Positions 694-59,980 of a stretch of 64,000 bases of DNA are shown in pieces. A program made the translations under genes and the position numbers. Source of the stretch: Henriciella mobilis (GTDB lineage Bacteria > Pseudomonadota > Alphaproteobacteria > Caulobacterales > Hyphomonadaceae); the NCBI RefSeq assembly GCF_003576315.1, contig NZ_QWFZ01000036.1:62001-126000 (forward strand). The letters run 5' to 3'. The notes below the pieces were generated by a model, which saw nothing but the letters and a program-made list of their open reading frames with translations, was not told the origin of the DNA and ran no database searches. The first letter of the stretch is position 1. Every line of letters begins with the position of its first letter.

Positions 694-719
694 GGAGGCC
701 CCGTATTCCTAAATGTACA

Positions 720-734
720 TGAGAATGAATTGCA
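720..734. promoter_or_regulatory. Candidate Fur box upstream of the siderophore receptor
   Basis: TGAGAATGAATTGCA has the 7-1-7 inverted layout of Fur sites and matches TGATAATNATTATCA at 10 of 14 non-central positions. It lies 27 bp upstream of the receptor start on the minus strand. Site identity is an inference from pattern and context. Confidence 0.5.
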
Positions 735-762
735 GATGAGCCGCGCCTAAGGGCTTTGAACT

Positions 763-777
763 TGCGAGTCAATCGCA
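763..777. promoter_or_regulatory. Second Fur-like 7-1-7 inverted repeat
   Basis: TGCGAGTCAATCGCA pairs at 6 of 7 arm positions around a central C. It sits inside a wider inverted repeat, TTGCGA (762-767) and TCGCAA (779-784). It lies between the two divergent genes, nearer the ABC operon, and could give the exporter iron control too. Confidence 0.4.
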
Positions 778-967
778 TTCGCAAAATTTATCACGGCCGG
801 TGCGTCTCTTTCCTTGGAGCTTGCTGGCATGGCCCAATGCGCTGCATCTGCTTCACATCCGGCATTCTCCCTATTGTGGTGTTGTCATGAAGGCGTGCTT
901 TGTTGACGCTTGCGGCTGCATGTTTCTTGCAGCCTCATGTCGATTGAATTCCGGCCGGGACGGAGGA

Positions 968-1699
968 ATGAAAACAAGCGACGATCCCAAGACGAGCGGT
1001 ACGACGTTCGACGTGAAGCAGCTGACCCGCGTCTATGGCGAGGGTCCGGCAGCCGTGCACGCGTTGCGCGGCGTCGATCTGCAAATTCCAAAGGGTGATC
1101 TGGTCGTCTTGCTCGGGGCGTCCGGTTCGGGCAAGTCCACCTTGCTCAACATCCTTGGCGGGCTCGACCGCGCGACTGATGGCCAGGCCCACTTCTTCGA
1201 CAAGGATCTGACGGCGATGTCGGATGCGCAGCTGACGCGCTACCGGCGACACCATGTCGGCTTCGTCTTCCAGTTCTATAATCTGATGCCGAGCCTCACA
1301 GCTCACGAGAATGTCGACCTCGTCACCGAGATTTCCGACAATCCCATGCCCGCCGATGAGGCGCTTGATCTGGTTGGCCTGTCTCACCGCCAGGACCATT
1401 TCCCCGCCGAGATGTCAGGCGGCGAACAGCAGCGTGTCGCGATTGCGCGGGCGATCGCCAAGCGCCCCACCGTCCTTTTCTGCGACGAGCCCACCGGCGC
1501 GCTGGATTCAACAACAGGCCGCCAGGTTCTGAGGGTGATCCAGGATGTGAATGCCAATCTCGGGACCACGGTCATGATCGTAACCCATGCCGCGGCCACG
1601 GCAGCGATGGCGCACCGGGTCATCCACATGGCTGACGGCGCTGTCCGGGAAGTCATCGAGAACGAGACGCGCTTGTCGGCCGAGGAGATCGAGTGGTGA
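968..1699 (+). CDS. ABC transporter ATP-binding protein, LolD/MacB type
   Basis: Nucleotide-binding subunit that would power a membrane exporter made with the next two genes. The 243-residue protein has Walker A GASGSGKST, a Q-loop (FVFQFYNLMPSLT), the signature MSGGEQQRVAIARA, Walker B VLFCDEPTGALD and an H-loop histidine (IVTHAA). 'EPTGALD' and 'FQFYNLMP' are typical of the LolD/MacB/SalX group that works with FtsX-type permeases. I place the start at the ATG after GGACGGAGGA; the frame stays open upstream to 800, but that extension (Cys/His/Leu rich) does not look like family sequence. The stop overlaps the permease start by four bases, implying translational coupling. Confidence 0.93.
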   Translation: MKTSDDPKTSGTTFDVKQLTRVYGEGPAAVHALRGVDLQIPKGDLVVLLGASGSGKSTLLNILGGLDRATDGQAHFFDKDLTAMSDAQLTRYRRHHVGFVFQFYNLMPSLTAHENVDLVTEISDNPMPADEALDLVGLSHRQDHFPAEMSGGEQQRVAIARAIAKRPTVLFCDEPTGALDSTTGRQVLRVIQDVNANLGTTVMIVTHAAATAAMAHRVIHMADGAVREVIENETRLSAEEIEW

Positions 1700-4059: not shown

Positions 4060-4062
4060 GAA

Positions 4063-5313
4063 ATGGCTGCCCGGAATTTGCGATCCCGCCCGATCATTCT
4101 TGCCAGCATTGTGCTGTTGCTGCTGGTCCTGTTCGCTTGGGCCTTCTGGCCGCGCCCGGTGGCGGTCGACCTTGGCGTCGTCGAGCGCATGCCGATGCAG
4201 GTGACGATCGATGAGGAAGCGCGTACCCGCGTTCGCGATGCCTATGTCGTGTCCGCGCCTGTCGGCGGGCAGTTGCTGCGTGTCGATGTTGAGCCCGGTG
4301 ATGCCGTTGCAGGTGGCGATAGCGTGATTGCGCGGATGCTGGCCGCCGCACCACCAGCTCTGGATGTTCGCACGCGAGAACAGGCCCGTGCCGGTGTTAG
4401 CGCCGCCGAAGCGGCCCTGCGAGTTGCACGTTCCAGCCTGAGCAGCGCCATCGCCGATCAGGATCTTGCCGAAACCGAATTTGCGCGAGTATCTAATCTC
4501 AGTGAAAGCGGCGCGGAATCGCAGGCGCGTCTCGATCAGGCCCGCCGTGTGAAACGCGCCGCCGATGCTGCCGTCGACACGGCAAGGGCTGTCATTGCGA
4601 TGCGTGAGGCGGAACTGGCCAATGCGCGTGCCCAACTGATTGAATTCCAGTCTGAGAAAGGTGCCGGTGCAGGTGACGACGCGTCTTCTTCTCGCGACGG
4701 TGTGACCATCCCGATCACGGCGCCGATCAGCGGGCGGGTGCTCAGGGTCATGCAGGAAAGCGAGACCACGCTCGCTGCCGGCCAGCCCATCCTCGAAATC
4801 GGTGATGTCTCGAATGATCTCGAAGTACTTGCCGAGCTTCTGTCGTCCGATGCCGTCCAGGTCGAGCCGGGTGACGAGGTCATCATCGACAATTGGGGCG
4901 GTGGTGAGCCGCTCAGCGGTGTCGTCGACCGCGTCGAGCCATGGGGGTTCACCAAGTTCTCGGCGCTCGGTGTCGAAGAGCAGCGGGTCAACACCATCAT
5001 CCGGTTCTCCGATCCTCTGTCCGACCGAAGCGCCCTCGGGCATGGCTATCGCGTCGAGGTTCGTATTGTCACCTGGGAAGATGATGATGCGCTGACCGTT
5101 CCGTCAGCAGCGCTGTTCCGGCAAGCCGGTGAGTGGTCTGTCTTTATCGTGGAGGAGGGGCGCGCCCGGATCGTGCCGGTCGACGTGGCCCGCAACAACG
5201 GCCAGCTAGCAGCATTGGCCAATGGTCCGGGCGAAGGGACCGAGGTGATCCTTTATCCCAGCGATACTCTGGTGGAGGGCGTGCGCGTCGAAAGGCGCGC
5301 CCAAGGTGAGTAA
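4063..5313 (+). CDS. HlyD/MacA-family periplasmic adaptor subunit
   Basis: Membrane-anchored adaptor that links an inner-membrane transporter to an outer-membrane channel. It has one N-terminal membrane helix (about residues 11-28), a split biotinyl-lipoyl-like half (YVVSAPVGGQLLRVDVEPGDAV), an Ala-rich coiled-coil hairpin (about 105-200), the second lipoyl half (ITAPISGRVLRVMQESETTLAAGQ is its core), then beta-barrel and membrane-proximal domains. It begins three bases after the permease, with TAGGAA before the ATG. Together the three genes make a tripartite ABC exporter; no outer-membrane channel gene is present. The Fur-like sites and the divergent siderophore receptor suggest a cargo tied to iron, which is inference only. 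Confidence 0.9.
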   Translation: MAARNLRSRPIILASIVLLLLVLFAWAFWPRPVAVDLGVVERMPMQVTIDEEARTRVRDAYVVSAPVGGQLLRVDVEPGDAVAGGDSVIARMLAAAPPALDVRTREQARAGVSAAEAALRVARSSLSSAIADQDLAETEFARVSNLSESGAESQARLDQARRVKRAADAAVDTARAVIAMREAELANARAQLIEFQSEKGAGAGDDASSSRDGVTIPITAPISGRVLRVMQESETTLAAGQPILEIGDVSNDLEVLAELLSSDAVQVEPGDEVIIDNWGGGEPLSGVVDRVEPWGFTKFSALGVEEQRVNTIIRFSDPLSDRSALGHGYRVEVRIVTWEDDDALTVPSAALFRQAGEWSVFIVEEGRARIVPVDVARNNGQLAALANGPGEGTEVILYPSDTLVEGVRVERRAQGE

Positions 5314-28370: not shown

Positions 28371-30179
28371 TCAGATGCGTTCCAGACCTGCCAGTGCGAG
28401 CGAAGGGCAGGGAATGGCATCGGGCGTCGTCGTCTTCACATCCTTGCTGAAGGCTGACTGCACGCAGTCGAGATCGAGGTCGACCATCGCGTCATAAGTG
28501 TCGAGGTAGACCTTGCCGGTCAGCTCCTCGAGGAAGTGGGACCGCTTCAGCCGGTCCATGACCGGACCTTTGACTTCGGTCAGGTGCAGCGTGACGCCGG
28601 CATCTTTCAGGCGATGATTGATCGCTTCAAGGCTCTCCAAACCGCTGGCGTCGATATGATTGACCGCCGGGCACATCAGGACGAGGTGTTTGAGGTCCGG
28701 CCGGTTGCTGACCACGCAATAGACGGTGTCTTCCAGGAAGCGCGCGTTGGCGAAGTAGAGGCTCTCATCGATGCGGATGATCAGCGCCTTGTCAGAAATC
28801 ACCACGGCATGGCGGTTCACATTCCGGAAATGGTGCGTGCCCGGTACCTGGCCGACTAGGGCAAAGTGCGGCCGGCTTGTGTTGTAGAGGTGCAGGAAGA
28901 GCGACAAGGCAACGCCCGTCGTCACACCGAGCTCTACCCCGGAAAGCAGGGTGATAAGGATCGTGGCCGCCATGGCTGCAAAGTCGGCCTTGGAATAGGA
29001 CCAGACCCGCCAGATCGTCTTCAGGTCGACAAGCGATAGCACCGCAACGATGATGGTTGCGGCCAGCACGGCTTGGGGCAGGTAAAAGAGGTAAGGCGTC
29101 AGGTAGAGCGTCGCGAGCGCGATGCCGATGGCCGTGAAGGCGCCGGCCGCTGGCGTCTCGGCGCCCGCGTCGAAGTTCACCGCAGACCGGGCAAGCCCGC
29201 CTGTCACAGGATAGCCGCTGGACACACCGGCCGCCATGCTGGCGGCGCCGAGGCCGATCAGCTCCTGGTTCGGGCTGACCCGCTGGCGCCGCTTCGCCGC
29301 CAGGGTCTGGGCAACGGAAACCGATTCGACAAAGCCGATCAGGCTGATCAGGGCGGCAGAGCCGGCCAGCTGCATCCAGGTGTCCCTGTCAAAGGCGGGC
29401 AGGCCGATGTCCGGCAGGTTGCGAGGCACGTCACCAAGGATGCGTACGCCATCCTCATCGAGCCTCAGGAGTGCGACGGCGAGAATACTGACAATCACAG
29501 CAAAGACCGGACCGGTGCGAGTGGCGATGGTCGCCGCTTTCTCCGACAGGCCGGCCTTCAGCAACAATGGCTTGAGAAACTTCCGCGATCCGAACAGGAA
29601 AACCAGCGAAGCGCCGCCAATGATCAGCGTTGGCAGGCTCGTTTCAGGCAGGCTGCGGGCGAGCGCGAGGACGATCTCGAACAGGTTGTGGCCGCCTGCC
29701 TCGACGCCGAGTATATGCTTCAGCTGCGAGGCGGCGATAATGATGCCCGAGGCTGTGATGAAGCCCGAAACGACTGGATGGCTCAGGAAGTTGGCGAGAA
29801 ACCCCATTCGCAGCAGGCCGAGCGCGAAAAGGATTGCGCCCGACATGAATGCCAGGATCAGCGCGGCCTGCACATAGGCATCAGAGCCAGGCGCTGCGAT
29901 CTTTCCGGCGGCCGCGGCCGTCATCAACGACAGAATGGCGACAGGGCCGACCGCAAGCGTCCGACTGGTGCCGAAGATGGCGTAGGCAATCAGCGGCAGG
30001 ATCGACGCGTATAGCCCGATCTGCGGCGGCAGGCCTGCCAGCATCGCATAGGCGAGTGACTGCGGGATCAGCATGATGGTCACGATGACCGCCGCGATCA
30101 GGTCGTTGACCAGCGTTTCTCGGCGGTACTCGCGCCCCCATTCCAGGATGGGGAAGTATCTCGACAGCCGGAATGGCAT
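28371..30179 (-). CDS. SulP-family anion transporter with STAS domain
   Basis: Inner-membrane SLC26/SulP protein of 602 residues moving sulfate, bicarbonate or a related anion. It has about 12 membrane helices with 'DLIAAVIVTIMLIPQSLAYAMLAGLPPQIGLYASILP' and 'YPVTGGLARSAVNFDAGAETPAAGAFTAI' as family signatures, and a C-terminal STAS domain (about 440-560; 'VLMCPAVNHIDASGLESLEAIN'). It is the last gene of a minus-strand operon with a persulfide-dioxygenase-like gene and an ArsR regulator, which suggests export or uptake of sulfite, sulfate or thiosulfate. The start is 18 bases after the metallohydrolase stop. Confidence 0.92.
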   Translation of the reverse strand: MPFRLSRYFPILEWGREYRRETLVNDLIAAVIVTIMLIPQSLAYAMLAGLPPQIGLYASILPLIAYAIFGTSRTLAVGPVAILSLMTAAAAGKIAAPGSDAYVQAALILAFMSGAILFALGLLRMGFLANFLSHPVVSGFITASGIIIAASQLKHILGVEAGGHNLFEIVLALARSLPETSLPTLIIGGASLVFLFGSRKFLKPLLLKAGLSEKAATIATRTGPVFAVIVSILAVALLRLDEDGVRILGDVPRNLPDIGLPAFDRDTWMQLAGSAALISLIGFVESVSVAQTLAAKRRQRVSPNQELIGLGAASMAAGVSSGYPVTGGLARSAVNFDAGAETPAAGAFTAIGIALATLYLTPYLFYLPQAVLAATIIVAVLSLVDLKTIWRVWSYSKADFAAMAATILITLLSGVELGVTTGVALSLFLHLYNTSRPHFALVGQVPGTHHFRNVNRHAVVISDKALIIRIDESLYFANARFLEDTVYCVVSNRPDLKHLVLMCPAVNHIDASGLESLEAINHRLKDAGVTLHLTEVKGPVMDRLKRSHFLEELTGKVYLDTYDAMVDLDLDCVQSAFSKDVKTTTPDAIPCPSLALAGLERI

Positions 30180-41692: not shown

Positions 41693-41706
41693 TGGTAGCG
41701 CTACCA
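41693..41706. promoter_or_regulatory. LacI-type operator, TGGTAGCGCTACCA
   Basis: A perfect 14-bp palindrome with a central CG, the form bound by LacI-family repressors. It lies between the lacI stop and a terminator-like hairpin, upstream of the hydroxylase. No second copy was found near the TonB receptor or the other promoters in the window. Confidence 0.65.
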
Positions 41707-41731: not shown

Positions 41732-41768
41732 GTTGGGTGGCGGCTCAGGCTTGCCACCCAACCCTTTT
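41732..41768 (+). terminator. Rho-independent terminator or attenuator between lacI and the hydroxylase
   Basis: A perfect 10-bp stem, GTTGGGTGGC (41732-41741) with GCCACCCAAC (41753-41762), is followed by CCTTTTTC. It could end lacI transcription. If the promoter overlaps the operator at 41693, it would lie in the hydroxylase leader and act as an attenuator. Confidence 0.75.
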
Positions 41769-41862: not shown

Positions 41863-42564
41863 ATGAACTTCCAGGGTAATTTCAAGCGCGTCGGCAGCTT
41901 CGATACCAGCGAGTTGAAACGGCTCGTGCTCGGGCTGACGCAGGAGCACTGGCTGGCCGACGATACGCGCCAGAAGCGCTATGAGGTGCACAAGGATACG
42001 CAGTTTATCGGGCTCGCCTATGATGAAGACTTCCGGCATACGCATCCGACGCGTCGACCAGCGCTCGACCTGTTCGGACCGGCCATCCAGTCGCTGCTCG
42101 CGCAGATCGCAGAATTTTACGAAACCCACCCGGAAACCTTCGCGAAGTTCCAGAAGCCGGTTCGCGGCTATTTCATCCGGATCAGCCTCGCCAAGCTCGT
42201 GGCGGGTGGCAAGATCTCCATCCACCAGGACAAGAACTTCTCTCTGACCCATTCCCATCGGGTGCACTTGCCGATCGTGACCAATCCCGATTGCTGGTTC
42301 TATGTTGGCAAGGAACGGATGAACATGAAGGAGGGCGAGATCTGGGAGATCAATAATCGGCGGATGCACTATGTTGCCAATCACGGCGATGAGGACCGCG
42401 TGCACCTGATCCTCGACTGGGTCTTCCCATGGGAGCCGTGCTGCTGCGCGGACAAGGTGCATCCGGGCGAGCCCTGCACGCCCAAGGCCTGCGCGGACTC
42501 CGTCGTGTTGCGGATCCCTTGCGATTGCCATCCGGAAGAAGCCGACGTGCCGCTTCCGGTCTAG
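41863..42564 (+). CDS. Aspartyl/asparaginyl beta-hydroxylase-like Fe(II)/2-oxoglutarate dioxygenase with Cys-rich tail
   Basis: Predicted non-heme iron dioxygenase of 233 residues. The double-stranded beta-helix shows the metal site His121-x-Asp123 ('GKISIHQDKNFSLTHSHRVHLPI'), the distal His169 ('INNRRMHYVANHG') and the 2-oxoglutarate Arg179 ('DRVHLILDW'), as in bacterial AspH-like proteins. The last 40 residues hold seven Cys (193-195, 205, 210, 220, 222), which I do not know from this family and which could form a metal-binding or redox tail. The start at 41863 has GGGATGGG five bases upstream; ATG at 41854 is the alternative. Only three bases separate it from the sulfotransferase, so they are co-expressed. 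The target could be a peptide, an amino acid or another small molecule. Confidence 0.85.
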   Translation: MNFQGNFKRVGSFDTSELKRLVLGLTQEHWLADDTRQKRYEVHKDTQFIGLAYDEDFRHTHPTRRPALDLFGPAIQSLLAQIAEFYETHPETFAKFQKPVRGYFIRISLAKLVAGGKISIHQDKNFSLTHSHRVHLPIVTNPDCWFYVGKERMNMKEGEIWEINNRRMHYVANHGDEDRVHLILDWVFPWEPCCCADKVHPGEPCTPKACADSVVLRIPCDCHPEEADVPLPV

Positions 42565-42567
42565 AGC

Positions 42568-43512
42568 ATGCAGCGGGCGCCCGACCTCAAACCGATCGCC
42601 ACCCAGGAGACGGCGGGCCTGGGAGATGCGGCGATCGATGCGCTGATGCCAGACCCCGTCATCATCCTGTCCGCGCCACGTGCCGGCAGTACACTGATGT
42701 TCGAACAGATTTGCCGTATCCCGCCCTTCTGGAGTATCGGTGGTGAGAGCCATGCGGTCTTCCGGGAGTTTCCGCATTTAAGAGCCAGCGATGCGGCGTT
42801 GAGTTCGATGGCCCTGGACGAGCGCCACGCCGATCCTCAGACCGCTGACATGTTCCGTCGCCTATTTGTCCTGCTGATGCGAGACGAACGGGGCCGCCGA
42901 TACCTTGAGTATCCGCCGCAGGCCCGTCCAGGGCGTGTGACGCTTGTCGAAAAGACGCCGCGAAACGCACTCAACATTCCCTTCCTGCTGAAAGTATTTC
43001 CAAGGGCCCGCTTCGTTTTCCTGCATCGCGATCCGCGCCAGAATGTTGCCAGCCTGATTGAGGCCTGGGCAGTCGGTCTCAACAAGGGGCGGTTCATAAC
43101 CTTTCGGGACCTGCCGGACTGGCCGCTGCCGGGCTGGTGCTTTGTCTTGCCGCCAGGCTGGGAAAAGATGCGTGGCCGATCGCTTGCGGAAATTGCGGCC
43201 TTCCAGTGGCTGGCCTGCAATGAGGCGATCCTGTCCGGCCTGTCAGGCCTGCCGGCCGAACGGCTGACCGTGCTGAGTTATGCGGACTTCATGGCCGATC
43301 CGGGCAAGACGCTCCTTGGTGTCTGCAAAGCGTTGGGGATCGATGGTGCGCCAGCTGGCCTGAATATTGGGCCAATGCCGCTGTCGCGTTCGACGGTGTC
43401 GCAGCCAAGTCCGGACAAGTGGCGACGCTTCGAAGCGGAGATCGCGCCGCTACTGCCGCAGCTCACCTCAATGCAGGCGCGAATAGATGATTTCGCAGCA
43501 GGGCTTGGCTGA
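42568..43512 (+). CDS. Sulfotransferase-family protein (first copy)
   Basis: Predicted PAPS-dependent sulfotransferase of 314 residues. The 5'-phosphosulfate loop is 'IILSAPRAGSTLMFEQI' (about 33-48) and the 3'-phosphate site is 'RFVFLHRDPRQNVASLIEAW' (about 148-167, Arg154). 'LVEKTPRNALNIPFLLKVFP' is typical of the bacterial sulfotransferase_3 group. It probably transfers sulfate to a hydroxyl group, for which the adjacent hydroxylase could supply the acceptor. It starts three bases after the hydroxylase stop. Its stop abuts the stop of the halogenase on the opposite strand, with no terminator between. No PAPS-producing genes are in the window. Confidence 0.87.
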   Translation: MQRAPDLKPIATQETAGLGDAAIDALMPDPVIILSAPRAGSTLMFEQICRIPPFWSIGGESHAVFREFPHLRASDAALSSMALDERHADPQTADMFRRLFVLLMRDERGRRYLEYPPQARPGRVTLVEKTPRNALNIPFLLKVFPRARFVFLHRDPRQNVASLIEAWAVGLNKGRFITFRDLPDWPLPGWCFVLPPGWEKMRGRSLAEIAAFQWLACNEAILSGLSGLPAERLTVLSYADFMADPGKTLLGVCKALGIDGAPAGLNIGPMPLSRSTVSQPSPDKWRRFEAEIAPLLPQLTSMQARIDDFAAGLG

Positions 43513-45156
43513 TCAGTACGGCCGCGCCCGTCCTGGCGCCCAGCCCGGAGGTTCGTAGCCAGCACTGGTGAAGCTCGGCGCGCCGAGCGCGCGTTGCAAC
43601 CACATGTCATGCGGCGGGAGTTTTACCTGGGCGGCGCGAAGACGCTCGATGATCGCAGGCATGACCCGCGTCTTGGGGGCGTCCGGCGACGGGGGTGCCA
43701 GGGGCTCGCCACAGAAATGCATGCCGTACATGATCGCCTCATAGCTCTCATGGTTCCAGAGACCGGCCGTATCGACGGGCGATCGCGGGTCGCAGCCCGG
43801 AACGACCCGGTCAATCTGCCCAGCTCCGCCCGGGAAGGACTGGTCCTGGAAGTCCGAAGCGCTCGGCGGCTTGAGTTTCCAGTATTCGAACTTGGCTTTC
43901 AGCCGGTCGGTGATCCGCTCTGGTTTCTGCACCTCCTGCCAGAAAGCCGTGTCGGTCCGGCGCGACAGGCAGTAGTGCATGTTGATGAAATCGAGGATCT
44001 CGAAATACCGGTTGGAGATCACCCGGTTCACCCGGAAGGCCATCGCCTCCAGCATATCATCAGTATAAGGAAAATGCTCTGCCAGCATCACGGCACCGAG
44101 GTCCGACAGGTAGAGGCCGGTCGATTCCAGCGGTTCGATGAACCCGCCCGCCAGCCCGATTGCGAGGCAGTTGCCCTGCCAGGCCTTCTGCCTCTGGCCG
44201 ACATGGAACTTGATCAGCCGCGTTTCGATGTCCTTCGCGTGAGGCCCTTCATAGGCCCGCCATTCGCGTTCTGCCTCTTCTGCCGAAATGAAGTGACTGG
44301 AATGAACATAGCCGACGGAGCGCTGATCCTGCATCGGGATATCCCACGCCCAGCCCGACGAAAGCGCCGTGGCCGTTGTGTAAGGGCGGATGAGGCCCGG
44401 ATAGAACTCGTCATAGGGTATGCGGCCAACCACGGCCTGGTCACACATCAGCCACTGGGAATAGTCCTCATAGCCGACGCCAAGGGTCTCTCCGATGAGC
44501 CGCGCGCGAAAGCCCGTGCAATCGACGAAAATGTCCGCCTCGTGCACATTGCCGCGATCGGTCCTGACCGATTTGATCAGTCCGTTCTCGCGCATTTCAA
44601 CGTCGGTCACGTTCTCGAGGTAGTGGGAGACGCCGCGCGCGGTAGAGAAATCTCTTAGATAGTCGGCGAATTTCTGGGCGTTCATATGGTAGGCGTAAGC
44701 CAGCGGGGCGCCCATATCCCAGCGCCCAAGCATCTTCGGGGCGCGCGCCATGTCACAGATGACAGGCTGGGCCGAAACCGTCTCCATGAAGGGAACCGAA
44801 CGGTCGGAATTCAGCCAGGCCCGTCCGGTCCTGTCGATTGGCTGAATCCGGTAGCGGCTGAAGGGGTGATGGTAGAAGCTCTGGTCATTGTGGAGCCAGT
44901 TCTGATAGCGGATCGACTGCTTGAAGGTCGCATCCGCCGCCTTCATGAATTCCGTCTCATCGAGGCCGGCGACGGACAGGACATGCTGGATCGAGGGGAC
45001 GGTCGCCTCGCCAACAGAAATGCGCGGGATGTCTGGGGATTCGATCAGGCTGATTTTTACGGTGGGCGCATTGCCGCGATCGTTAAGGGCGCCATTGAGG
45101 TAGGCTGCTGTCATCCAGCCGGCCGACCCTCCGCCTACAATCAGCACACGTCTCAT
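43513..45156 (-). CDS. Flavin-dependent halogenase, tryptophan halogenase (PrnA) family
   Basis: A 547-residue FADH2-dependent halogenase-like enzyme. It has the FAD motif GGGSAGW (8-14), 'ISVGEATVPSIQHVL', Lys79 in 'ATFKQSIRYQNW' (the residue forming the chloramine in PrnA), the family marker WAWDIP (269-274) and Glu344 in 'EPLESTGLYL' (PrnA Glu346). The catalytic set is therefore complete. 'HYCLSRRTDTAFWQEV' also fits. A flavin reductase is not encoded nearby. In Caulobacter and Xanthomonas, relatives often sit beside TonB receptors of sugar loci, so the true substrate may not be tryptophan. It lies 31 bp after the second sulfotransferase on the same strand. Confidence 0.92.
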   Translation of the reverse strand: MRRVLIVGGGSAGWMTAAYLNGALNDRGNAPTVKISLIESPDIPRISVGEATVPSIQHVLSVAGLDETEFMKAADATFKQSIRYQNWLHNDQSFYHHPFSRYRIQPIDRTGRAWLNSDRSVPFMETVSAQPVICDMARAPKMLGRWDMGAPLAYAYHMNAQKFADYLRDFSTARGVSHYLENVTDVEMRENGLIKSVRTDRGNVHEADIFVDCTGFRARLIGETLGVGYEDYSQWLMCDQAVVGRIPYDEFYPGLIRPYTTATALSSGWAWDIPMQDQRSVGYVHSSHFISAEEAEREWRAYEGPHAKDIETRLIKFHVGQRQKAWQGNCLAIGLAGGFIEPLESTGLYLSDLGAVMLAEHFPYTDDMLEAMAFRVNRVISNRYFEILDFINMHYCLSRRTDTAFWQEVQKPERITDRLKAKFEYWKLKPPSASDFQDQSFPGGAGQIDRVVPGCDPRSPVDTAGLWNHESYEAIMYGMHFCGEPLAPPSPDAPKTRVMPAIIERLRAAQVKLPPHDMWLQRALGAPSFTSAGYEPPGWAPGRARPY

Positions 45157-45187
45157 TCTGCGGTTACCTGCCTATAATTAATGATGC

Positions 45188-45970
45188 TCATGCGTAGCCC
45201 AGAAGGGCGCGTAGTCCGGGCACGTAGTAATCGACGAGCTGTTTCTGTGTCTCCGGCAACTGGTCCGGCACCTCATCGCGAGTTGTCAGGTTTTCGCGGG
45301 CCGTACTGCTCATCTTGCGGTCCGAGCCGATCCGTACGCGCTCGCGCCAGTCGGCGGGCATGGCCATACCGCACTTGGCAAACAGCTTGGAAAAGAAGGC
45401 TTCCGCTTCGGGGGTGTCGAGCGCTTTCACATGGGTGACGAGGTCTTCGTAGCGCACCAGATGGGCGCTGGAGCCAAGCCAGCTTGCGGCATTGTGCGTG
45501 TAGATCTCGCGCATCGAGGGCACCTTGTTGTGAATGCCGAAAATCATCATGTTCAGGACATCGAGCGTATCAGCATTGCCGCCCTTCAGGTGCTCCAGAT
45601 TGGCCTCGAAATTGTCCGACAGGAAGAAGCGCGCCCGCGCCAGGACCCAGTCATACGGATCTCGCACCAGCAGGACATGGTTGACCTTGCGCAACACGAT
45701 GGCCGCATCGTCAGAGAACAGAAGATGTCCCCAGCTCAAGCGTGGTGCGTGCGGATAGAAGGCCTCAAGATGCTGACGCAGCACGGGAATCTGGATGAAG
45801 GTGTCGTGATATTGCTGTTCGACTGGCACGAACATGCGCATGATGTTGCGCATCAAATGCGTGCCGCTCTTCGGGACTGAGTTGAGGAAGACCGGCGTTT
45901 TCAACGGCGTCTGAGTGAACTCACGATTACGCTCATTCAGATTGTCTGGCTTGACCTTGATGTGCGGCAT
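45188..45970 (-). CDS. Sulfotransferase-family protein (second copy)
   Basis: A 260-residue predicted PAPS-dependent sulfotransferase. The 5'-phosphosulfate loop 'PVFLNSVPKSGTHLMRNIM' (about 26-44) is of the cytosolic PKSGT type, and 'VNHVLLVRDPYDWVLARARFFLS' gives the 3'-phosphate site. It differs clearly from the first copy (PRAGS, RDPRQN), so they are not a recent duplication and probably act on different groups or substrates. It is the first gene of a minus-strand pair with the halogenase. The leader carries two mutually exclusive hairpins. The TonB receptor terminator lies upstream, so the pair has its own promoter or depends on read-through. Confidence 0.88.
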   Translation of the reverse strand: MPHIKVKPDNLNERNREFTQTPLKTPVFLNSVPKSGTHLMRNIMRMFVPVEQQYHDTFIQIPVLRQHLEAFYPHAPRLSWGHLLFSDDAAIVLRKVNHVLLVRDPYDWVLARARFFLSDNFEANLEHLKGGNADTLDVLNMMIFGIHNKVPSMREIYTHNAASWLGSSAHLVRYEDLVTHVKALDTPEAEAFFSKLFAKCGMAMPADWRERVRIGSDRKMSSTARENLTTRDEVPDQLPETQKQLVDYYVPGLRALLGYA

Positions 45971-46111: not shown

Positions 46112-49100
46112 CTAGAAGCGCTTCGTGATGTTAACGAAGGCCCGGCGGCCGAGATAGTCGTACTGCGACACGATGAGCGAGTTGCCCGCATCGGCGTCGG
46201 AGACAGCCGGCGGATGCTCGTCGAAGACGTTCGCGACACCAACGCGGAAGGTCCACGTATCGGCCTCATATTGAGTCGAGAAGGTGTGGTAGATCGTCTC
46301 TTCCGTGTAGTACTTATAGCGGACCGGGGTTCCGTACAGCGTTGTGCCGACTTCCCGCTGGCTGCGCTCTGTCTGGTCAGTCTCACCGATGTAATCCACG
46401 CCCCAGAAGAAGCTCCACGGTGTTTCAGTGTCGAGATTGAAGTTCAGGTAACCCGTGGTTTGGGGCTCCCCATACTCGCCATTGAGGTCTTCAATGTCGT
46501 CTTCAGCAAGCAGCTTGGTGAAGGATTCCAGCTGGTGGGTCACTTGTCCCTCGACGGTCAGGCGGCCCCATCTTGTGTCGTGGCCATAACGAGCCGTGAA
46601 GTCGATGCCTTCATTCTTCTGTGAGTTCACATTGATGAACTGCGCCCGGACGTCCGTGATGCGGTTGGCATCCGTTGCATCCGGAGCGTTTCGGTCAAAT
46701 CGGCTACACAGCGGATCATTCGGGAAGCTCTGCGACTCATAGCAGCCGAACACGATGGCCTGGGCTGTGAGAGTCGTGATCTCGTCGTTGATCTCGATAT
46801 CGAAGTAATCGACGGCGAGCGACAGATCGGCCCATTGTGGCGTGTAGACGAAACCAGCGCTGAAGTTGTCGGAGGTTTCCGGCTCCAGAAGACCGAGACC
46901 GCCCCCGCGGAACAGGTCGGCCGTGATCGCCCCGCCGACATAGTCGTCGGGAATGCCGGCTGCCGCACAGTTGGTCTGGATAATCGCTGCAGTATCAGGG
47001 TCGCCCCAGTTGATACATGGGTCGATCACGCCTTGGCGGACGAAACTTGTTTCATCAGCCAGGTACAGTTCGAAGAGACCAGGTGCCCGGAATGACGTGC
47101 CTTGAGTTGCCCTGAGTCGTATCTCTGGAGTGACCGTCCAGTTCAGGGCGAGCCTGTAATTGTCGCCGGTTTCATCAACCGTACTGATATCGGTAATCCG
47201 GCCCGAAGCCGTGAAAAGAAGGCTTTCCACGAACGGAAGATCGGCTAGCAGCGGCACTTCGATTTCACCGTAATAGGCCGTCTGTTCCTGAGAGCCGGTG
47301 GTGATGCCGGCCGATGAGGAGCCCCAAGCGTTGCCAGCAAGGACGATATCGGATGGCGTATCTGTGATCTCGTCTTCCTGATAGAGGAAGCCGATAGCCG
47401 CGTTGACCGTGCCAGCGGGGAGCTCAAAGATGGGACCGGTTATGTAGCCCTCGATCGAGGACTGGATGTACTCGGTATTGCCGGTTTCCTTGGTGAACAG
47501 GAAGTCTTCGACCTCCTGGCTGTAATTACCGCGAAGCAGTTCCGGATCGAACCACGGGACATCCACACAAGGACGGTTTGTGATGGAGGTTACGCCGCCA
47601 TTGTAGTCGCTACAAAGCGAGGTCTGGAAGTTATAGTCGTAGATCGAGTCGCCGTAGATGAAGTCCTCGGTGTAATCGCCCTGAGAGTCTGAATACTGGT
47701 AGGCCAGATCCCAGCTGAAGCCATCGAGAAAACCTGTGAAATCACCGCGCAGGCCAGCGACATAGCGCTGGTATTCGACGACCACTTCTTCGTCGTTACG
47801 ATCGGAGATTGCTGTTGGTGAGAACCACTGCAGGCCGGTCCAGCCCTGTGCTGATGGTTCCGGGTTCATGCCCGTACCACCGAAAAGGCCGAGGCTGTCC
47901 TCACCATAGTGATAGGACCAGAATTGCGAGTAGCTGTCGTTGAAGGTTTCACGCCGGTTGTACAGCGCCTCACCATAAGCAGTGATATTGGGTGTCAGCT
48001 CGAAGTCACCGGACAACAGGAATGTGAACCGTTCGACTTTCGGCTGCAGCGTCTCGGCATTTTGGAACGGGTGATCATAGTCGACCAGGCCGCGCGCTTC
48101 GTCACCAACAGTTATGCCATTCCAGGCAGGCAAGCCGTCGATGTCATTCTGGTCATAGTAGATTGGGAAAAAGCCCTGCGGAACCGAAAGTTGCTCCGGA
48201 TCGCCCGTGTTGGGATACCCTGGAAGGCCGTTTGCCGCCAGAAACCCGTCGTAATCATACTGGGCCAGGAAGGGGAAAGTCGTCGGCACATTGGTGTCGC
48301 CTGCATAATCGTAGATCCAGACTTGACCCCAGAGAAGGTCGCGGCACTGGAACTCGCCGGTGCGCGGATCGATGACGTCGGCCCGACCGCCGCCGGTCTC
48401 GTTGAAGGCATACGCTTCGCCGCAATCCAGATAATCGCGGTCACCACGCGACAGTTCGCGGCGCTCGTAATAGTCCACGGTGGCTCGGACAGAACCTCGT
48501 TCGAACGACTTGCCGTAGCTTCCGCTCAAACGAAACTCTTCGCCGCCGCCTTTTTCGGGGGCGGAGATGTAGCCATCGATGACACCACCATCATCCTTGC
48601 GCGTGATGATGTTCACGACGCCAGCGATGGCGTCAGACCCGTAAACGGCCGATGCGCCGTCCTTGAGGATTTCAACACGCTCAACAGCGGCCAGAGGAAT
48701 GGAGTTGAGGTCGAAGGCGGAAACCGAGCCGCGCGTCCCCGAAGGACCGGCGCGGCGGCCATCGAGCAGGAAGAGCGTCCGGTTGGCGCCAAGACCGCGC
48801 AAAGACAGGGTTTCTGCGCCGGTACCGCCATTGCTGACGAATGCACTCGAAACGGCACCGTTGATCTGGGCCGAGCCGGATGCAGCGGTCGAAGACTGAA
48901 GCAGTTGGGCGACGTCGGCGATGCCTTCAATCTTTGCTTCGTCGGCTGTGAGGACGTCGATCGGTGCAGCGCTGGAGAATTCGTCGCGCGCAATGCGGGA
49001 ACCGGTGACGACAACTTTATCCTGGCGCGCTTCGTCTGCCGCTGGTTCTTCGTCTGCGGGAACCACGACGACGCTCTCGTCAGCTTCCTGCGCACTTGCA

Positions 49101-49171
49101 TATCCGGCCACCAAGGCCAGGCACAGTGCGGACGAGTGCATCAGACGCACTCCAAACTTCTTGGTGAACAT
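46112..49171 (-). CDS. Large TonB-dependent receptor of the 1000-residue group
   Basis: Outer-membrane receptor of 1019 residues. Signal peptide (about 1-27, LALVAGYASAQ) leads into an acidic linker, the TonB-box-like 'DKVVVTGSRIAR' and a plug with 'LSLRGLGANRTLFLLDGRRAGPSG', 'FDLNSIPLAAVERVEILKDGASAVYGSDAIAGVVNIIT'. The barrel ends in 'RRAFVNITKRF'. This group is common next to tryptophan-halogenase-like genes in Caulobacterales, Alteromonadales and Xanthomonas and is linked to glycan or peptide uptake. It is followed by its own terminator, then the sulfotransferase-halogenase pair. AGAGGGGTAAAAC precedes the ATG. Confidence 0.93.
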   Translation of the reverse strand: MFTKKFGVRLMHSSALCLALVAGYASAQEADESVVVVPADEEPAADEARQDKVVVTGSRIARDEFSSAAPIDVLTADEAKIEGIADVAQLLQSSTAASGSAQINGAVSSAFVSNGGTGAETLSLRGLGANRTLFLLDGRRAGPSGTRGSVSAFDLNSIPLAAVERVEILKDGASAVYGSDAIAGVVNIITRKDDGGVIDGYISAPEKGGGEEFRLSGSYGKSFERGSVRATVDYYERRELSRGDRDYLDCGEAYAFNETGGGRADVIDPRTGEFQCRDLLWGQVWIYDYAGDTNVPTTFPFLAQYDYDGFLAANGLPGYPNTGDPEQLSVPQGFFPIYYDQNDIDGLPAWNGITVGDEARGLVDYDHPFQNAETLQPKVERFTFLLSGDFELTPNITAYGEALYNRRETFNDSYSQFWSYHYGEDSLGLFGGTGMNPEPSAQGWTGLQWFSPTAISDRNDEEVVVEYQRYVAGLRGDFTGFLDGFSWDLAYQYSDSQGDYTEDFIYGDSIYDYNFQTSLCSDYNGGVTSITNRPCVDVPWFDPELLRGNYSQEVEDFLFTKETGNTEYIQSSIEGYITGPIFELPAGTVNAAIGFLYQEDEITDTPSDIVLAGNAWGSSSAGITTGSQEQTAYYGEIEVPLLADLPFVESLLFTASGRITDISTVDETGDNYRLALNWTVTPEIRLRATQGTSFRAPGLFELYLADETSFVRQGVIDPCINWGDPDTAAIIQTNCAAAGIPDDYVGGAITADLFRGGGLGLLEPETSDNFSAGFVYTPQWADLSLAVDYFDIEINDEITTLTAQAIVFGCYESQSFPNDPLCSRFDRNAPDATDANRITDVRAQFINVNSQKNEGIDFTARYGHDTRWGRLTVEGQVTHQLESFTKLLAEDDIEDLNGEYGEPQTTGYLNFNLDTETPWSFFWGVDYIGETDQTERSQREVGTTLYGTPVRYKYYTEETIYHTFSTQYEADTWTFRVGVANVFDEHPPAVSDADAGNSLIVSQYDYLGRRAFVNITKRF

Positions 49172-56416: not shown

Positions 56417-58102
56417 TCAGTTTTCGTGCGCTTGCCCGACGGCCCAGTAGCCGCTCCAGGGCTCGAGCTGTCCGGGCACGGACGGCTTATCTACGGCGCT
56501 GCCGCGTTCGTGTGCAACCACCGCAAGTGCGTTACCCTCCGGCGGCATATAGCGGCGGATGGTGTCACTGACGTTAAAGACGCAGAGAACAGTCTGACTC
56601 TGAAGCGTTCGCTCGAAGGCGATGACCCCTTCCGGCGCGTCGAGAAAGCGCAGGCTGCCGAGCCGCAGGGCCGGCCATTTGCGCCGCTCCGCAATCAGGG
56701 AGCGGGTCACGTTCAGGCTGGAGCCGGGGTCAGCCTCCTGGAGGTCGGCCGAAAGCGGCACATGGCCGGGATCAACCGGCAGCCATGGCTCACCCGCCGA
56801 GAAGCCGGCATGCGGCTTGTCCGCTTCCCATGGGATCGGTGTGCGCGCACCGTCCCGTCCGAGCGTGCGCGGCCAGTTGGCGATCGCTTCGGGATCCTTG
56901 AGGTGCTCGAAGGGTACGTTCGCCTGAGGCAAGCCGAGCTCCTCGCCCTGGTAGATGAAAGCATTGCCGCGCAGGGCGAGCAGGAGCAGAAGCAGGAGGT
57001 CAGCAGCCTGCTTGCGGTCGCCGGCGGCGGCCCAACGGCTGACGGCACGCGGGGCGTCATGGTTCGAGAAGGCCCAGCTCGGCCATCCCTCCGAACCGGT
57101 GCCTGTCCACTGGTTCAGCGAGCGTGCCACCCGGTCGGGCGAGAGGCTCTTGGCATAGAGAAAGTCAAAGCTGTAGGCGGAATTCAGCCGGCTGTCGCCC
57201 TCGGTGAACCGCTTCATTTCATCGATGGGGTCCGGGCCGCCGATTTCGGCCACGGTGAACTTGCCGTCATAGGTGTCGAGCAGAGCGCGGATACGCTCCA
57301 GGAAAGCCGGGACCTCGGGCTGCGACATCGAATAGATGTGGCGCTGCATGTCGAATGGCCGGGTCACAAGGTCCATCGGCAGGCCGGACGGCGGATTGTC
57401 CCGCAGTTGCCGGTCATGCATGGCAAAGTTGATCGCATCCAGCCGGAAGCCGTCGACGCCGCGATCCAGCCAGAACTTCGCCGCCGCGAGCAAGGCGTCC
57501 TGAACCTCCGGATTATGAACATTCAGGTCGGGTTGTGAGGGCAGGAAGTTATGGAAGTAGTATTGCTGTCGCCGCGCATCCCATTTCCATGACGTGCCGC
57601 CGAACACGGACTGCCAGTTGTTCGGCGGGGATCCGTCTTCTTTGGGGGCTGCCCAGACATACCAGTCGGCCTTGGGGTTTGTCCGGCTCTCCCGGCTTTC
57701 GGTGAACCAGGCATGCTCGTCCGATGTGTGGGAATAGACCTGGTCGATGATGACCTTCAGGCCGAGCGCATGTGCCCGTTCGACAAGCCGGTCGAAATCC
57801 TCCAGCGAACCGAACATCGGGTCGACATCGCAGTAGTCCGAGACGTCGTAGCCATAATCCTTCATCGGCGACTTGAAAAAGGGCGAGAGCCAGACCGCAT
57901 CCACACCCAATGAGGCAATGTGGTCCAGCCGCTTGATGATGCCTTTCAGGTCACCAATGCCGTCGCCGGTCGTATCCTGGAAGCTGCGTGGATAGACCTG
58001 ATAGATGATCGCCCCCGTCCACCAGGGGGCGTTCAACGTATCGCGTTCGGATGGACGGCGCGCGAGCGCATTGTCTGGACATTTACTCATTTCAATACTC
58101 AT
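56417..58102 (-). CDS. GH13 alpha-glucosidase (oligo-1,6-glucosidase/alpha-glucosidase type)
   Basis: Cytosolic glycoside hydrolase of 561 residues that cleaves maltose, isomaltose or short maltodextrins to glucose. GH13 regions: 'IIDQVYSHTSDEHAWF' (region I), 'GFRLDAINFAMHD' (nucleophile Asp), 'FTVAEIGG' (acid/base Glu) and 'FSNHDAPRAVSRW' (region IV). 'YQVYPRSFQDTTGDGIGDLKGIIKRLDHIASLGVDAVWLSPFF' fits the GH13_23/31 group. No signal peptide. It begins three bases after the amylase stop. ATG at 58090 is an alternative start. Confidence 0.92.
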   Translation of the reverse strand: MSIEMSKCPDNALARRPSERDTLNAPWWTGAIIYQVYPRSFQDTTGDGIGDLKGIIKRLDHIASLGVDAVWLSPFFKSPMKDYGYDVSDYCDVDPMFGSLEDFDRLVERAHALGLKVIIDQVYSHTSDEHAWFTESRESRTNPKADWYVWAAPKEDGSPPNNWQSVFGGTSWKWDARRQQYYFHNFLPSQPDLNVHNPEVQDALLAAAKFWLDRGVDGFRLDAINFAMHDRQLRDNPPSGLPMDLVTRPFDMQRHIYSMSQPEVPAFLERIRALLDTYDGKFTVAEIGGPDPIDEMKRFTEGDSRLNSAYSFDFLYAKSLSPDRVARSLNQWTGTGSEGWPSWAFSNHDAPRAVSRWAAAGDRKQAADLLLLLLLALRGNAFIYQGEELGLPQANVPFEHLKDPEAIANWPRTLGRDGARTPIPWEADKPHAGFSAGEPWLPVDPGHVPLSADLQEADPGSSLNVTRSLIAERRKWPALRLGSLRFLDAPEGVIAFERTLQSQTVLCVFNVSDTIRRYMPPEGNALAVVAHERGSAVDKPSVPGQLEPWSGYWAVGQAHEN

Positions 58103-58105
58103 GGA

Positions 58106-59980
58106 TTAGCCCTGCTCACTGTAGCAAACCAGGAAGTCGAGCGGGGCAACTGTTATCGGATAGCTGCCGGGCGAAGACGCGGCAGGGGCGCAATCTCCGT
58201 GCAGCGAGGCCCACTCAGCGGACAGGCCCGATACCGAAAGGTTCAGCTTGCGCGCCTCTTCGTCGGCGTTGAAGACGATAAGGTATTCTCGCGTGCGGTC
58301 TTCATTGAAGCGGGACATGGCAAACAGGCCGCCCTCTTCGTCAGAGTGGCGGATCACCTGCTTGCCGCGGCGCAGGGCAGGGTGCGCCATGCGGGTCGCG
58401 GCCATTTCAGCGATGGCGCTAAAAAGCGGATGCCGGGTGTCGAAGTTCACTTCAGCCGTCGTGGCCTGCGTGCCGACGAGATCATTGTCGTTGTAATCGG
58501 CAACCTGGCTCTCGAACATGTTCTCGCGCGCGGCGCGGTCATGGCCATCGGAAACGAAGCCCTGCTCGTCGCCATAGTAGATGGTCGGCACGCCGCGTGA
58601 GAAGATCAGCATGGCATGGGCAAGCTTCAGGCGGGCCAGCATCTCCTCATCCGTCATGTCCGGATCTGCCTCACGCAGGAAACCGGCAAAGCGGCCCATA
58701 TCGTGATTGCCGAGAAAGGTCGGCAGGATGGCAGCTGTCTCCAGGCCGTCGGCATAGGAATGATCGACTTCGAACAGCTCTTCCAGCCGCCGCGCCGGCG
58801 CGCCGTTGACGACAATGTCCTGCAGGACGCTCTGCAGGGCGAAGTCGAGCACGGAGGTTAGCCTGTCGCGCGTCGTATAGGCGGAGAGGCGCCCGGCATC
58901 GAACTCGTACACTTCGCCGAAGACGTGGAAGTGATGGATGCCAAGGCTCCTGGCATGCGCCTCCATGGCGGGCACGAAAGCCTGCCAGAATTCCGGGTTC
59001 ACATGTTTGGCGGTGTCGATGCGGAAACCATCGACGCGGTAGTCGGTGATCCACTGCTTGTAGATGTCGATGAAGCCTGCCACGACGCGGGGGTCCTCGG
59101 TCATCAGGTCGTCGAGGCCTGCGAAGTCCCCGAACCGCGAGCTCTCGCCCTCAAAGGCGGAATTGCCGCGATTGTGGTAGTAGATTGGATCGTTCAGCCA
59201 GGCAGGCGTCTTCGCTGACGCTTCATTCGCGGGCACAAAGGGATGGTAGGCCCAGTCCGGATTGTCGAGGGCTTTGAAGTTTTCCGCGGTTTGATACGCC
59301 GCATCGCTGCCCAGGAAACCTTCATTGATGACCGGGCCATCCGGACCGCCTTCGGTCGTCCATGGATAGGCGCCCTTGCTGCGGTAGACGCAGCCCTCTT
59401 CACCCACTTCATCGCCCGGCGCAGCGGTCTCGCTGCATTCGCGGTACTGGATTACATCGGCCGTGTGGTTGGTGATGATGTCCATGTACACCTTCATGCC
59501 GCGGTCATGGGCCGCCTCGACAAAAGCCTTGAAGTCCTCCCGTGTGCCGAGATGCGGATCGACATTGGTGAAGTCGGTAATCCAGTAGCCATGATAGGCA
59601 GCACTCTCGAGGCCGGGCGGGCCCTGCACGGGTTTGTTCTCGAAGATTGGCGTCAGCCAGATCGCGGTCGCGCCGAGCGCCTCGATATAGTCTAGCCGGC
59701 TGGTCAGGCCTTTCAGGTCGCCGCCGTGATAGAAGCCATTATCGGTCGGGTCGAAGCCATGGTCCAGCCGATCTCCGGAAATGCCGCCTCTGTCGTTTGA
59801 CGGATCGCCATTCTCGAACCGGTCCGGCATGACGAAATAGATGATCTCGTCCTGGGGCAGACGATCCTCCAATGGCGGCAAGGGCTTGGCATCCGGGGCC
59901 TGAGCCAGGCTGGTGCAGCCGGCTGCGGCGAGCAGCGTGGCGAGGACTCCGGCGCGCAGGTATGCGGATGTTCTGGTCAT
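58106..59980 (-). CDS. GH13 alpha-amylase-family lipoprotein
   Basis: Cell-envelope glycoside hydrolase of 624 residues acting on starch or maltodextrins. A lipoprotein signal with lipobox AAGC (Cys22) tethers it to a membrane. GH13 motifs: 'MDIITNHTADVIQY' (region I), 'VDGFRIDTAKHV' (nucleophile Asp), 'HVFGEVYEFD' (acid/base Glu) and 'FLGNHDMGRFA' (region IV). The C-terminal domain has a beta-sandwich look ('LIVFNADEEARKLNLSVSGL'). It is the first gene of the minus-strand operon, behind a LacI operator copy. GGGAGCG precedes the ATG. It should feed oligosaccharides to the GH97 enzyme and the transporter encoded on the other strand. Confidence 0.92.
   Translation of the reverse strand: MTRTSAYLRAGVLATLLAAAGCTSLAQAPDAKPLPPLEDRLPQDEIIYFVMPDRFENGDPSNDRGGISGDRLDHGFDPTDNGFYHGGDLKGLTSRLDYIEALGATAIWLTPIFENKPVQGPPGLESAAYHGYWITDFTNVDPHLGTREDFKAFVEAAHDRGMKVYMDIITNHTADVIQYRECSETAAPGDEVGEEGCVYRSKGAYPWTTEGGPDGPVINEGFLGSDAAYQTAENFKALDNPDWAYHPFVPANEASAKTPAWLNDPIYYHNRGNSAFEGESSRFGDFAGLDDLMTEDPRVVAGFIDIYKQWITDYRVDGFRIDTAKHVNPEFWQAFVPAMEAHARSLGIHHFHVFGEVYEFDAGRLSAYTTRDRLTSVLDFALQSVLQDIVVNGAPARRLEELFEVDHSYADGLETAAILPTFLGNHDMGRFAGFLREADPDMTDEEMLARLKLAHAMLIFSRGVPTIYYGDEQGFVSDGHDRAARENMFESQVADYNDNDLVGTQATTAEVNFDTRHPLFSAIAEMAATRMAHPALRRGKQVIRHSDEEGGLFAMSRFNEDRTREYLIVFNADEEARKLNLSVSGLSAEWASLHGDCAPAASSPGSYPITVAPLDFLVCYSEQG

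Follow-up and report, generated by a model that had tools for sequence, protein, structure and literature searches.

A stretch of 64,000 nucleotides from Henriciella mobilis (contig NZ_QWFZ01000036.1, positions 62,001 to 126,000; hereafter the window) encodes a hydroxylase, two sulfotransferases and a halogenase next to a TonB-dependent receptor, which raises the question of whether these genes belong together and what their products might act on. In the initial annotation, the four enzymes were proposed to form a single modification pathway, preceded by a LacI regulator and followed by the receptor. The order, the strands and the gaps of the four genes as well as both flanks were confirmed. 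The idea of one fixed four-gene pathway was not supported, and nested modules were found instead: a core of the receptor and the second sulfotransferase (ST2), a halogenase that is frequently added and a pair of hydroxylase and first sulfotransferase (hydroxylase-ST1) that is rarely present. Very probably, the genes constitute a co-inherited receptor-enzyme cassette, of which the TonB receptor and ST2 are the core and the rest is optional. Both sulfotransferases are of the type that uses 3'-phosphoadenosine 5'-phosphosulfate (PAPS), and the features of the locus are the following.

41863..42564, plus strand: hydroxylase HYD, an Asp/Asn beta-hydroxylase-type Fe(II)/2-oxoglutarate (2OG) oxygenase, 233 amino acids (aa); PF05118, E 2.6e-17 (scanned with a longer GTG start)
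42568..43512, plus strand: PAPS sulfotransferase ST1, 314 aa; PF13469, E 1.3e-22
43513..45156, minus strand: halogenase HAL of the flavin-dependent tryptophan-halogenase family, 547 aa; PF04820, 425.6 bits
45188..45970, minus strand: PAPS sulfotransferase ST2, 260 aa, of a highly conserved family; homologue alignment and predicted fold
46112..49171, minus strand: TonB-dependent receptor of 1019 aa, which forms the core with ST2; Pfam plug and barrel
48311..48313, minus strand: codon of receptor Tyr287, the most diagnostic residue for ST2 linkage; position checked

The hydroxylase and ST1 genes are separated by 3 bases, the halogenase and ST2 genes by 31 bases and the ST2 and receptor genes by 141 bases, while the stop codons of the converging ST1 and halogenase genes abut. 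The longest open reading frame (ORF) of the hydroxylase begins with the GTG at 41737. The start was placed at the ATG at 41863, as in the initial annotation, because this codon coincides with the start positions in relatives (MNFPGNF in P0045 and MNFQGSF in locus L055).

The receptor and ST2 form the core of the cassette

An alignment of 30 ST2 sequences led to 168 loci in named genomes, and the best 80 of these were retrieved together with flanks of at most 10 kb; many of the retrieved stretches end early, and the locus counts are lower bounds. The 80 loci belong to Alphaproteobacteria (Hyphomonas, Maricaulis and others) and to Gammaproteobacteria (Woeseiaceae, Kangiellaceae, Porticoccaceae, Idiomarina, Pseudidiomarina and others). 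The closest of them by receptor (75%) and halogenase (77%) is L013 from a Hyphomonadaceae bin. In 71 of the 80 loci, the receptor gene immediately precedes ST2 on the same strand, with alignment gaps of 73-205 bases (median 104), and the expected co-occurrence with a TonB receptor in many genomes was thereby borne out. The receptor, which had been said to follow the four genes, does adjoin them and is part of the core instead of merely following it. Among the nine exceptions, four loci (L022, L029, L057, L090) have the receptor on the opposite strand at a distance of 2.1 to 5.1 kb, a contig end cuts the locus in three (L036, L038, L078) and the receptor is unlinked in two (L043, L052). The genome of L043 has a close receptor elsewhere (952 bits), which lies 213 bases before a halogenase and carries the full loop motif described below. 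Since these neighbours recur across two classes, the association of the receptor and ST2, often together with the halogenase, is more than chance.

The same picture emerged from the order of H. mobilis, in which 34 of 249 genomes contain ST2. All 30 genomes with a receptor match above 700 bits possess ST2, in contrast to 2 of the 33 genomes with only weaker receptor matches of 448-700 bits (p 1e-34, uncorrected for ancestry). A survey at the class level was thin, with ST2 in 1 and ST1 in 3 of 240 genomes.

A divergent ST2 (52% identity; 3504-4274) was observed in locus L182, where a TonB receptor that belongs to a different subfamily (3-3221) lies 283 bases away. This is possibly an independent pairing of a receptor with a sulfotransferase.

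Halogenase and hydroxylase-ST1 are optional modules

The halogenase was found in the retrieved stretch of 48 of the 80 ST2 loci, with one, two, three and four copies in 37, 8, 2 and 1 loci, respectively. A hydroxylase is present in 11 loci, a count that depends on the threshold (12 at E 1e-8 and 11 at 1e-12), and ST1 in 6. Hydroxylase, ST1, halogenase and ST2 occur together in five loci besides the window (L020, L025, L027, L047 and L055), of which L047 and L055 look near-identical. The neighbourhood of the four families, which might have been peculiar to this strain, is thus not strain-specific.

Within the order, a close halogenase (>700 bits) is encoded in six genomes, all of which have ST2 (p 4e-6, uncorrected), and 13 further genomes gave weaker halogenase matches of up to 397 bits. 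Relatives of ST1 were detected in 18 genomes of the order, and only two of these have ST2 (p = 1), which means that there is no association in the order. Besides the locus of the window, 17 ST1 loci were retrieved; a hydroxylase match lies beside ST1 in 16 of them, frequently as a single long open frame, and genes resembling sulfotransferases with tetratricopeptide repeats (TPR) occur in 9, without the close receptor of the cassette. As the ST1 loci mostly hold a hydroxylase without a close receptor, and as ST1 and ST2 are unassociated in the order, hydroxylase-ST1 is a separate module that has joined the cassette in some lineages. The grouping of hydroxylase-ST1 with ST2 made in the initial annotation stands for the five four-gene loci; in the order the two are mostly apart. 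With ST1 alone as the query, no match was obtained in a first scan of genome contigs. Among the two lists of 120 homologues each from a wider protein collection, equal lengths of the longest contig (23843, 40525, 52489, 154393, 1277778 and 4041658 bases) are read as six cases in which homologues of ST1 and ST2 share a contig.

The separability of hydroxylase-ST1 bears on the view that the enzymes have no joint function and that only common regulation or insertion sites tie them to the receptor. The 2 of 18 ST1 genomes with ST2 would suit this view, and so would the hydroxylase-sulfotransferase genes of L141-L156, which have no close receptor and in 9 of the 17 loci stand beside TPR-sulfotransferase-like genes. 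It is nevertheless very improbable, given that the adjacency of receptor and ST2 persists across two classes with differing flanks and that the genomes with a close halogenase have ST2 without exception.

Several variants of the modules were observed. The hydroxylase-sulfotransferase pairs and fusions of L141-L156, which occur without a close receptor in genomes of the order, possibly represent a sulfation module of their own. In the Woeseiaceae loci L012, L019 and L030, three or four tandem halogenases precede the receptor-ST2 pair. Large proteins are encoded near some cassettes: the one at L029:10752-12830, which has a relative at L090:7559-9607, is a hydroxylase that carries TPR repeats and also gave a weak sulfotransferase match, and the one at L017:3342-4964 is a TPR-sulfotransferase.

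Identity of the enzymes

The translation of the hydroxylase shows HxD...H...R residues, which we take to be the motif of its family. In P0045 (550 aa, PF05118 and PF13469), a homologue of ST1 is fused to a hydroxylase. When aligned to solved halogenases, the halogenase was found to retain the GGGSAG, WAWDIP, Lys and EPLESTG regions, and hence the GGGxxG and WxWxIP motifs as well as the regions of the Lys and Glu that are presumably catalytic. It is a PF04820 flavin-dependent halogenase, for which halogenating activity is predicted, and it has the lowest score of the five PF04820 halogenases in the genome.

The assignment of ST2 comes from its fold and its motifs. By Pfam, ST2 is weakly recognised (PF00685, E 0.0051, 16.7 bits, under the cut-off of 22), and a comparison of the ST2 profile with the solved structures of the PDB by sequence revealed no sulfotransferase among the matches. 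The predicted model (predicted local distance difference test, pLDDT, 76.7) has the sulfotransferase fold with both the 5'-phosphosulfate-binding (5'-PSB) and 3'-phosphate-binding (3'-PB) motifs, and the Foldseek matches listed for it belong to the PAPS sulfotransferases, with a best E of 4.4e-5, TM values of about 0.4-0.5 and a large root-mean-square deviation. Across 29 homologues with 66-86% identity, the PKxGTH and RDP residues are invariant; these presumably serve as the 5'-PSB and 3'-PB motifs. A protein collection contained 3146 homologues at E <= 0.001, and the 120 listed all have at least 65% identity. No signal peptide of ST2 was visible by eye.

A receptor tyrosine that accompanies ST2

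The receptor has a PF07715 plug, a PF00593 barrel of a predicted 22 strands and a signal peptide, the latter recognised by eye only. A model calculated from 45 ST2-linked receptors (pLDDT 82.9) was matched by Foldseek to PfeA, PirA and FepA (best E 1.7e-34). The strands and the predicted extracellular loops 2 (residues 238-377) and 3 (residues 412-460) were derived from the DSSP secondary-structure string and strand parity, not from coordinates.

For a comparison of receptors with and without ST2, 102 full-length sequences were collected from 113 ST2 loci, which left 93 after removal of identical ones and 94 with that of the window. L182 and L043 were set aside, having no linked receptor of this family in the locus, and 92 linked receptors remained. 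They were compared with 31 sisters taken from 30 ST2-free loci of the order (L182 left out), a subset of the weaker receptors found. From tandem receptor arrays the best-matching copy was used; in L015/L159, the copy adjoining ST2 lacks the motif and another copy entered the comparison. Among 944 comparable columns, Tyr287 ranks first, as it is present in all 92 ST2-linked receptors and in none of the 31 sisters (92 of 94 with L182 and L043 included). In the linked set, 123 columns show a conservation of 97% or more, and of these residues only Tyr287, Ser108, Ser451 and Trp418 have a share of at most 5% among the sisters.

Tyr287 is part of the consensus motif CxDLxWGHxWxYDY in predicted extracellular loop 2, and this motif forms an island of conservation (mean 0.78 for residues 276-289 versus 0.48 for the remainder of the loop). 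The tyrosine persists where Trp281, Trp285, Asp278 or Tyr289 vary, and the divergent members L176-L179, L201-L206, L208 and L209 have kept it while other residues of the motif changed. Of the top 25 diagnostic columns, 16 lie in loops 2 and 3 (p 7e-7, with columns treated as independent) and 4 in the plug.

Receptor or cargo as the target

We lean, with somewhat less than even confidence, towards the view that the enzymes modify the receptor itself before its export. It would be the simplest target encoded in these loci, since the smallest of them hold the receptor and ST2 and since no conserved scaffold or precursor gene was found, which leaves the receptor as the sole conserved candidate encoded there; the clade-specific Tyr287 would be the simplest site. 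ST2 would then transfer sulfate from PAPS to Tyr287, the halogenase and hydroxylase-ST1, where present, would modify further residues of the receptor, and the modified loops would set which ligand binds, probably a peptide. A comparable role is known from animal chemokine receptors, in which sulfotyrosines shape ligand binding. In its specific form, which is put forward more tentatively, ST2 may be a bacterial protein-tyrosine sulfotransferase acting on the neighbouring receptor, with sulfation of Tyr287, optional Trp halogenation and optional Asp/Asn hydroxylation-sulfation yielding a modified ligand-binding face in marine Proteobacteria. TPR repeats often mean a protein substrate, and the TPR-carrying hydroxylase or sulfotransferase proteins near some loci (L029, L090, L017) are counted in favour of one here.

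Several observations weigh against modification of the receptor. The fold matches of ST2, which are of moderate quality, are enzymes for small phenols and alcohols, and PF04820-family halogenases are best known for acting on free Trp and small indoles. Moreover, the modification of a Sec-exported barrel in the cytosol would be unusual. The linked receptors form one clade (support 1.0), and Tyr287 thus represents a single evolutionary event. The clustering of diagnostic columns in loops 2 and 3 and in the plug marks a specialised ligand face, which would fit modification of Tyr287 as well as plain ligand binding.

Furthermore, 4 of the 34 ST2 genomes of the order have no receptor above 700 bits. 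In G336, a shorter receptor alignment adjoins ST2 and the motif is present; in G424, the receptor is split over two frames beside ST2 and the tyrosine is present; in G421, ST2 lies on a small contig of 4.4 kb and no receptor was found; and in G428, which has a divergent ST2 (52% identity), the best receptor lacks Tyr287. Likewise, the genome of L052 gave only a partial receptor match of 41% that does not cover the motif.

Loop Trp means are 7.0-10.4 in linked receptors grouped by halogenase copy class (n=93) versus 3.58 in sisters (n=31), with no trend of the Trp counts with halogenase copy number. The raw top rank for the halogenase was held by Trp449, present in 44 of 47 halogenase-positive receptors versus 1 of 39 alphaproteobacterial negatives. 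With halogenase status at the genome level added (determined for 36 of the genomes behind the 80 loci and for the 249 order genomes), the residue occurs in 43 of 45 positives when linked and in 3 of 5 when unlinked, compared with 5 of 43 negatives, and L069 and L081 have a halogenase in the locus yet a receptor without Trp449. In a Pagel-type test on the ST2 tree, which covered only the 40 columns of largest raw difference, the link ranked 13 of 40 (likelihood ratio 10.3) and was dropped as a special signal. No receptor residue was found to track the hydroxylase convincingly.

A close rival, and a distinct though likewise tentative possibility, is that the enzymes draw on the cell's own pool to produce or complete a small molecule or peptide, which would be sulfated and sometimes halogenated or hydroxylated. 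This product would be released or held at the surface, bind its target and return through the receptor. This would resemble the return of siderophores and methanobactin, and some methanobactin operons join a TonB transporter with MbnS and MbnF (PMC3621798). Similarly, CciT depends for its function on its cytoplasmic dioxygenase CciO, and the models proposed by the authors deal with the substrate of the transporter (PMC11870441). The clustering of the diagnostic columns in loops 2-3 and the plug is what a ligand site would give, and fusions of hydroxylase and ST1 suggest hydroxylation followed by sulfation of one acceptor.

Several observations speak against this rival. The initial annotation had reported that a scaffold-forming gene is absent, and this held for what was covered: no synthase of non-ribosomal peptides or polyketides occurs among the annotated neighbour clusters or the part of the window genes that was scanned. 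Among small ORFs (25-150 aa) of the 80 loci, no family extends across lineages, the largest (8 loci) reflecting synteny in Idiomarina and Pseudidiomarina, and no precursor of a ribosomally synthesised and post-translationally modified peptide is conserved. PF05114, the MbnB family, has no match in the whole genome. Neither a scaffold, a precursor peptide nor an exporter was found to be conserved with the cassette, with the limit that most clusters present in at most 8 loci are unannotated. In addition, 32 of the 80 loci have no halogenase in the retrieved stretch.

Beyond the cassette genes, the clusters of neighbouring ORFs found in more than 8 of the 80 loci are two of S9 peptidases (12 and 11 loci) and one of aldehyde dehydrogenases (10 loci), of each of which one member was checked against Pfam; clusters in 7 or 8 loci reflect Idiomarina/Pseudidiomarina synteny. 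S9 peptidases are present in 25 of the 80 linked loci; among the sister loci, whose stretches are smaller, they occur in 13 of 19, or in 14 of 20 once L182 is included. They are weakly related to the dipeptidyl-peptidase Dpp5, in one of two cases also to a lasso-peptide isopeptidase, and score far under the curated cut-offs. Since S9 peptidases often adjoin the wider receptor family, we infer a peptide cargo for this family. Their position near the receptor suggests that the cargo is digested, which speaks against a self-made molecule.

The same 25 loci would fit a further reading, in which an aromatic or peptide compound from outside enters through the receptor and the cytosolic enzymes then modify or detoxify it. 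ST2 resembles SULT enzymes acting on phenols, and homologues of CciO (PiuC and YbiX) have been suggested to transform what the adjacent transporter imports (PMC11870441). Such processing is unlikely, as no inner-membrane carrier is among the clusters common to more than 8 loci, the gene of the major facilitator superfamily (MFS) in the window has no match in the 80 loci, and sulfating and halogenating a nutrient costs PAPS and flavin for no obvious gain.

The aldehyde dehydrogenase genes (Pfam check on the L090 member) lie at varied distances from the cassette. In Hellea or Hyphomonadales-type loci, a gene of this cluster follows shortly after the halogenase (L061:3407-4852, L065:12600-14045 and L082:3810-5258).

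Relation to known systems

Tyrosine sulfation of a polypeptide is known from RaxST-RaxX and from eukaryotic TPST, which the cassette would resemble if the receptor is the target. In contrast, the profile of ST2 matched no solved sulfotransferase by sequence, and no conserved small peptide gene was found. The halogenase shares its family and motif regions with solved flavin tryptophan halogenases (PrnA, RebH, Thal; 6frl, 6y1w, 2pyx), although the parts that could be aligned stop between residues 407 and 475 of its 547.

By analogy, the nearest precedents appear to be the CciT-CciO pair and the methanobactin operons. In Caulobacter, CciT needs CciO for growth support, and the Fiu-YbiX and PiuA-PiuC pairs are related (PMC11870441); a second group reports that copper and iron transport does not depend on CciO (PMC12004943). 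As in CciT-CciO, the gene of a TonB receptor is co-conserved with that of an adjacent cytosolic tailoring-type enzyme (71 of 80 loci, 30 of 30 genomes). Here, however, the constant partner is a sulfotransferase and not a 2OG dioxygenase, the PF05118 hydroxylase being present in 11 of 80 loci, and the likeness meant here is one of gene arrangement. In some methanobactin groups, the TonB transporter MbnT is accompanied by the PF00685 sulfotransferase MbnS and the FAD enzyme MbnF (PMC3621798). The present cassette differs in that neither PF05114 (MbnB) nor a precursor peptide was found and in that MbnF belongs to PF01494, whereas the halogenase belongs to PF04820.

The genome itself contains two loci in which a PF04820 halogenase and a cupin-like protein (Cupin_8) lie beside a TonB receptor (L010:7661-14375 on contig C13 and L011:8475-14246 on contig C7), one of them with SapC. 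In contrast to the cassette, no sulfotransferase was found among the neighbours scanned, and the halogenases score above 610 bits to PF04820 compared with 425 here.

Receptor-enzyme pairs are already known. A description of a receptor-sulfotransferase core with halogenase and hydroxylase-sulfotransferase add-ons was not among the top-ranked literature matches, which covered few subscription journals. Genes of the halogenase family recur beside TonB receptors, namely for three of the five in this genome and in 48 of the 80 ST2 loci, and the literature searched gave no description of the targets of such halogenases. The receptor and the sulfotransferase form a two-gene system that is small enough for testing. 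If the receptor is modified, the chemistry would be of a kind new to outer-membrane receptors; otherwise, the receptor would handle a sulfated compound not described in the literature searched. Either outcome would explain orphan tailoring enzymes that are spread over two classes of Proteobacteria.

Regulator and surrounding genes

The LacI gene, which the initial annotation had placed before the group, is unlinked to it. For the window's LacI, MFS and alpha/beta-hydrolase genes, the 80 loci gave no match (E 1e-8), and LacI was rejected as the regulator of the cassette. Between the LacI gene and the hydroxylase lies a further feature.

41693..41706, no strand: perfect palindrome TGGTAGCGCTACCA, a LacI-type operator

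With up to one mismatch allowed, a single further copy of this palindrome occurs in the genome, at L008:8259-8272, where it precedes a class-I aldolase gene that adjoins pgk and gap. The two sites, each counted on both strands, are not above the control, which gave 5 matches per strand at no more than one mismatch. Because the other copy precedes the aldolase gene near pgk and gap, the LacI protein may regulate glycolysis. The palindrome in the window may control hydroxylase-ST1 and is probably not part of the cassette.

A SulP-type sulfate permease with a STAS domain is encoded at window positions 28374-30179, about 12 kb from the hydroxylase-ST1 pair. Two further halogenases are located beside GH97, alpha-amylase and MFS genes in the region given by window positions 56417-59980 and by L009:2241-11146, which runs past the right end of the window, and these surroundings look like an alpha-glucan utilisation locus that starts in the window.

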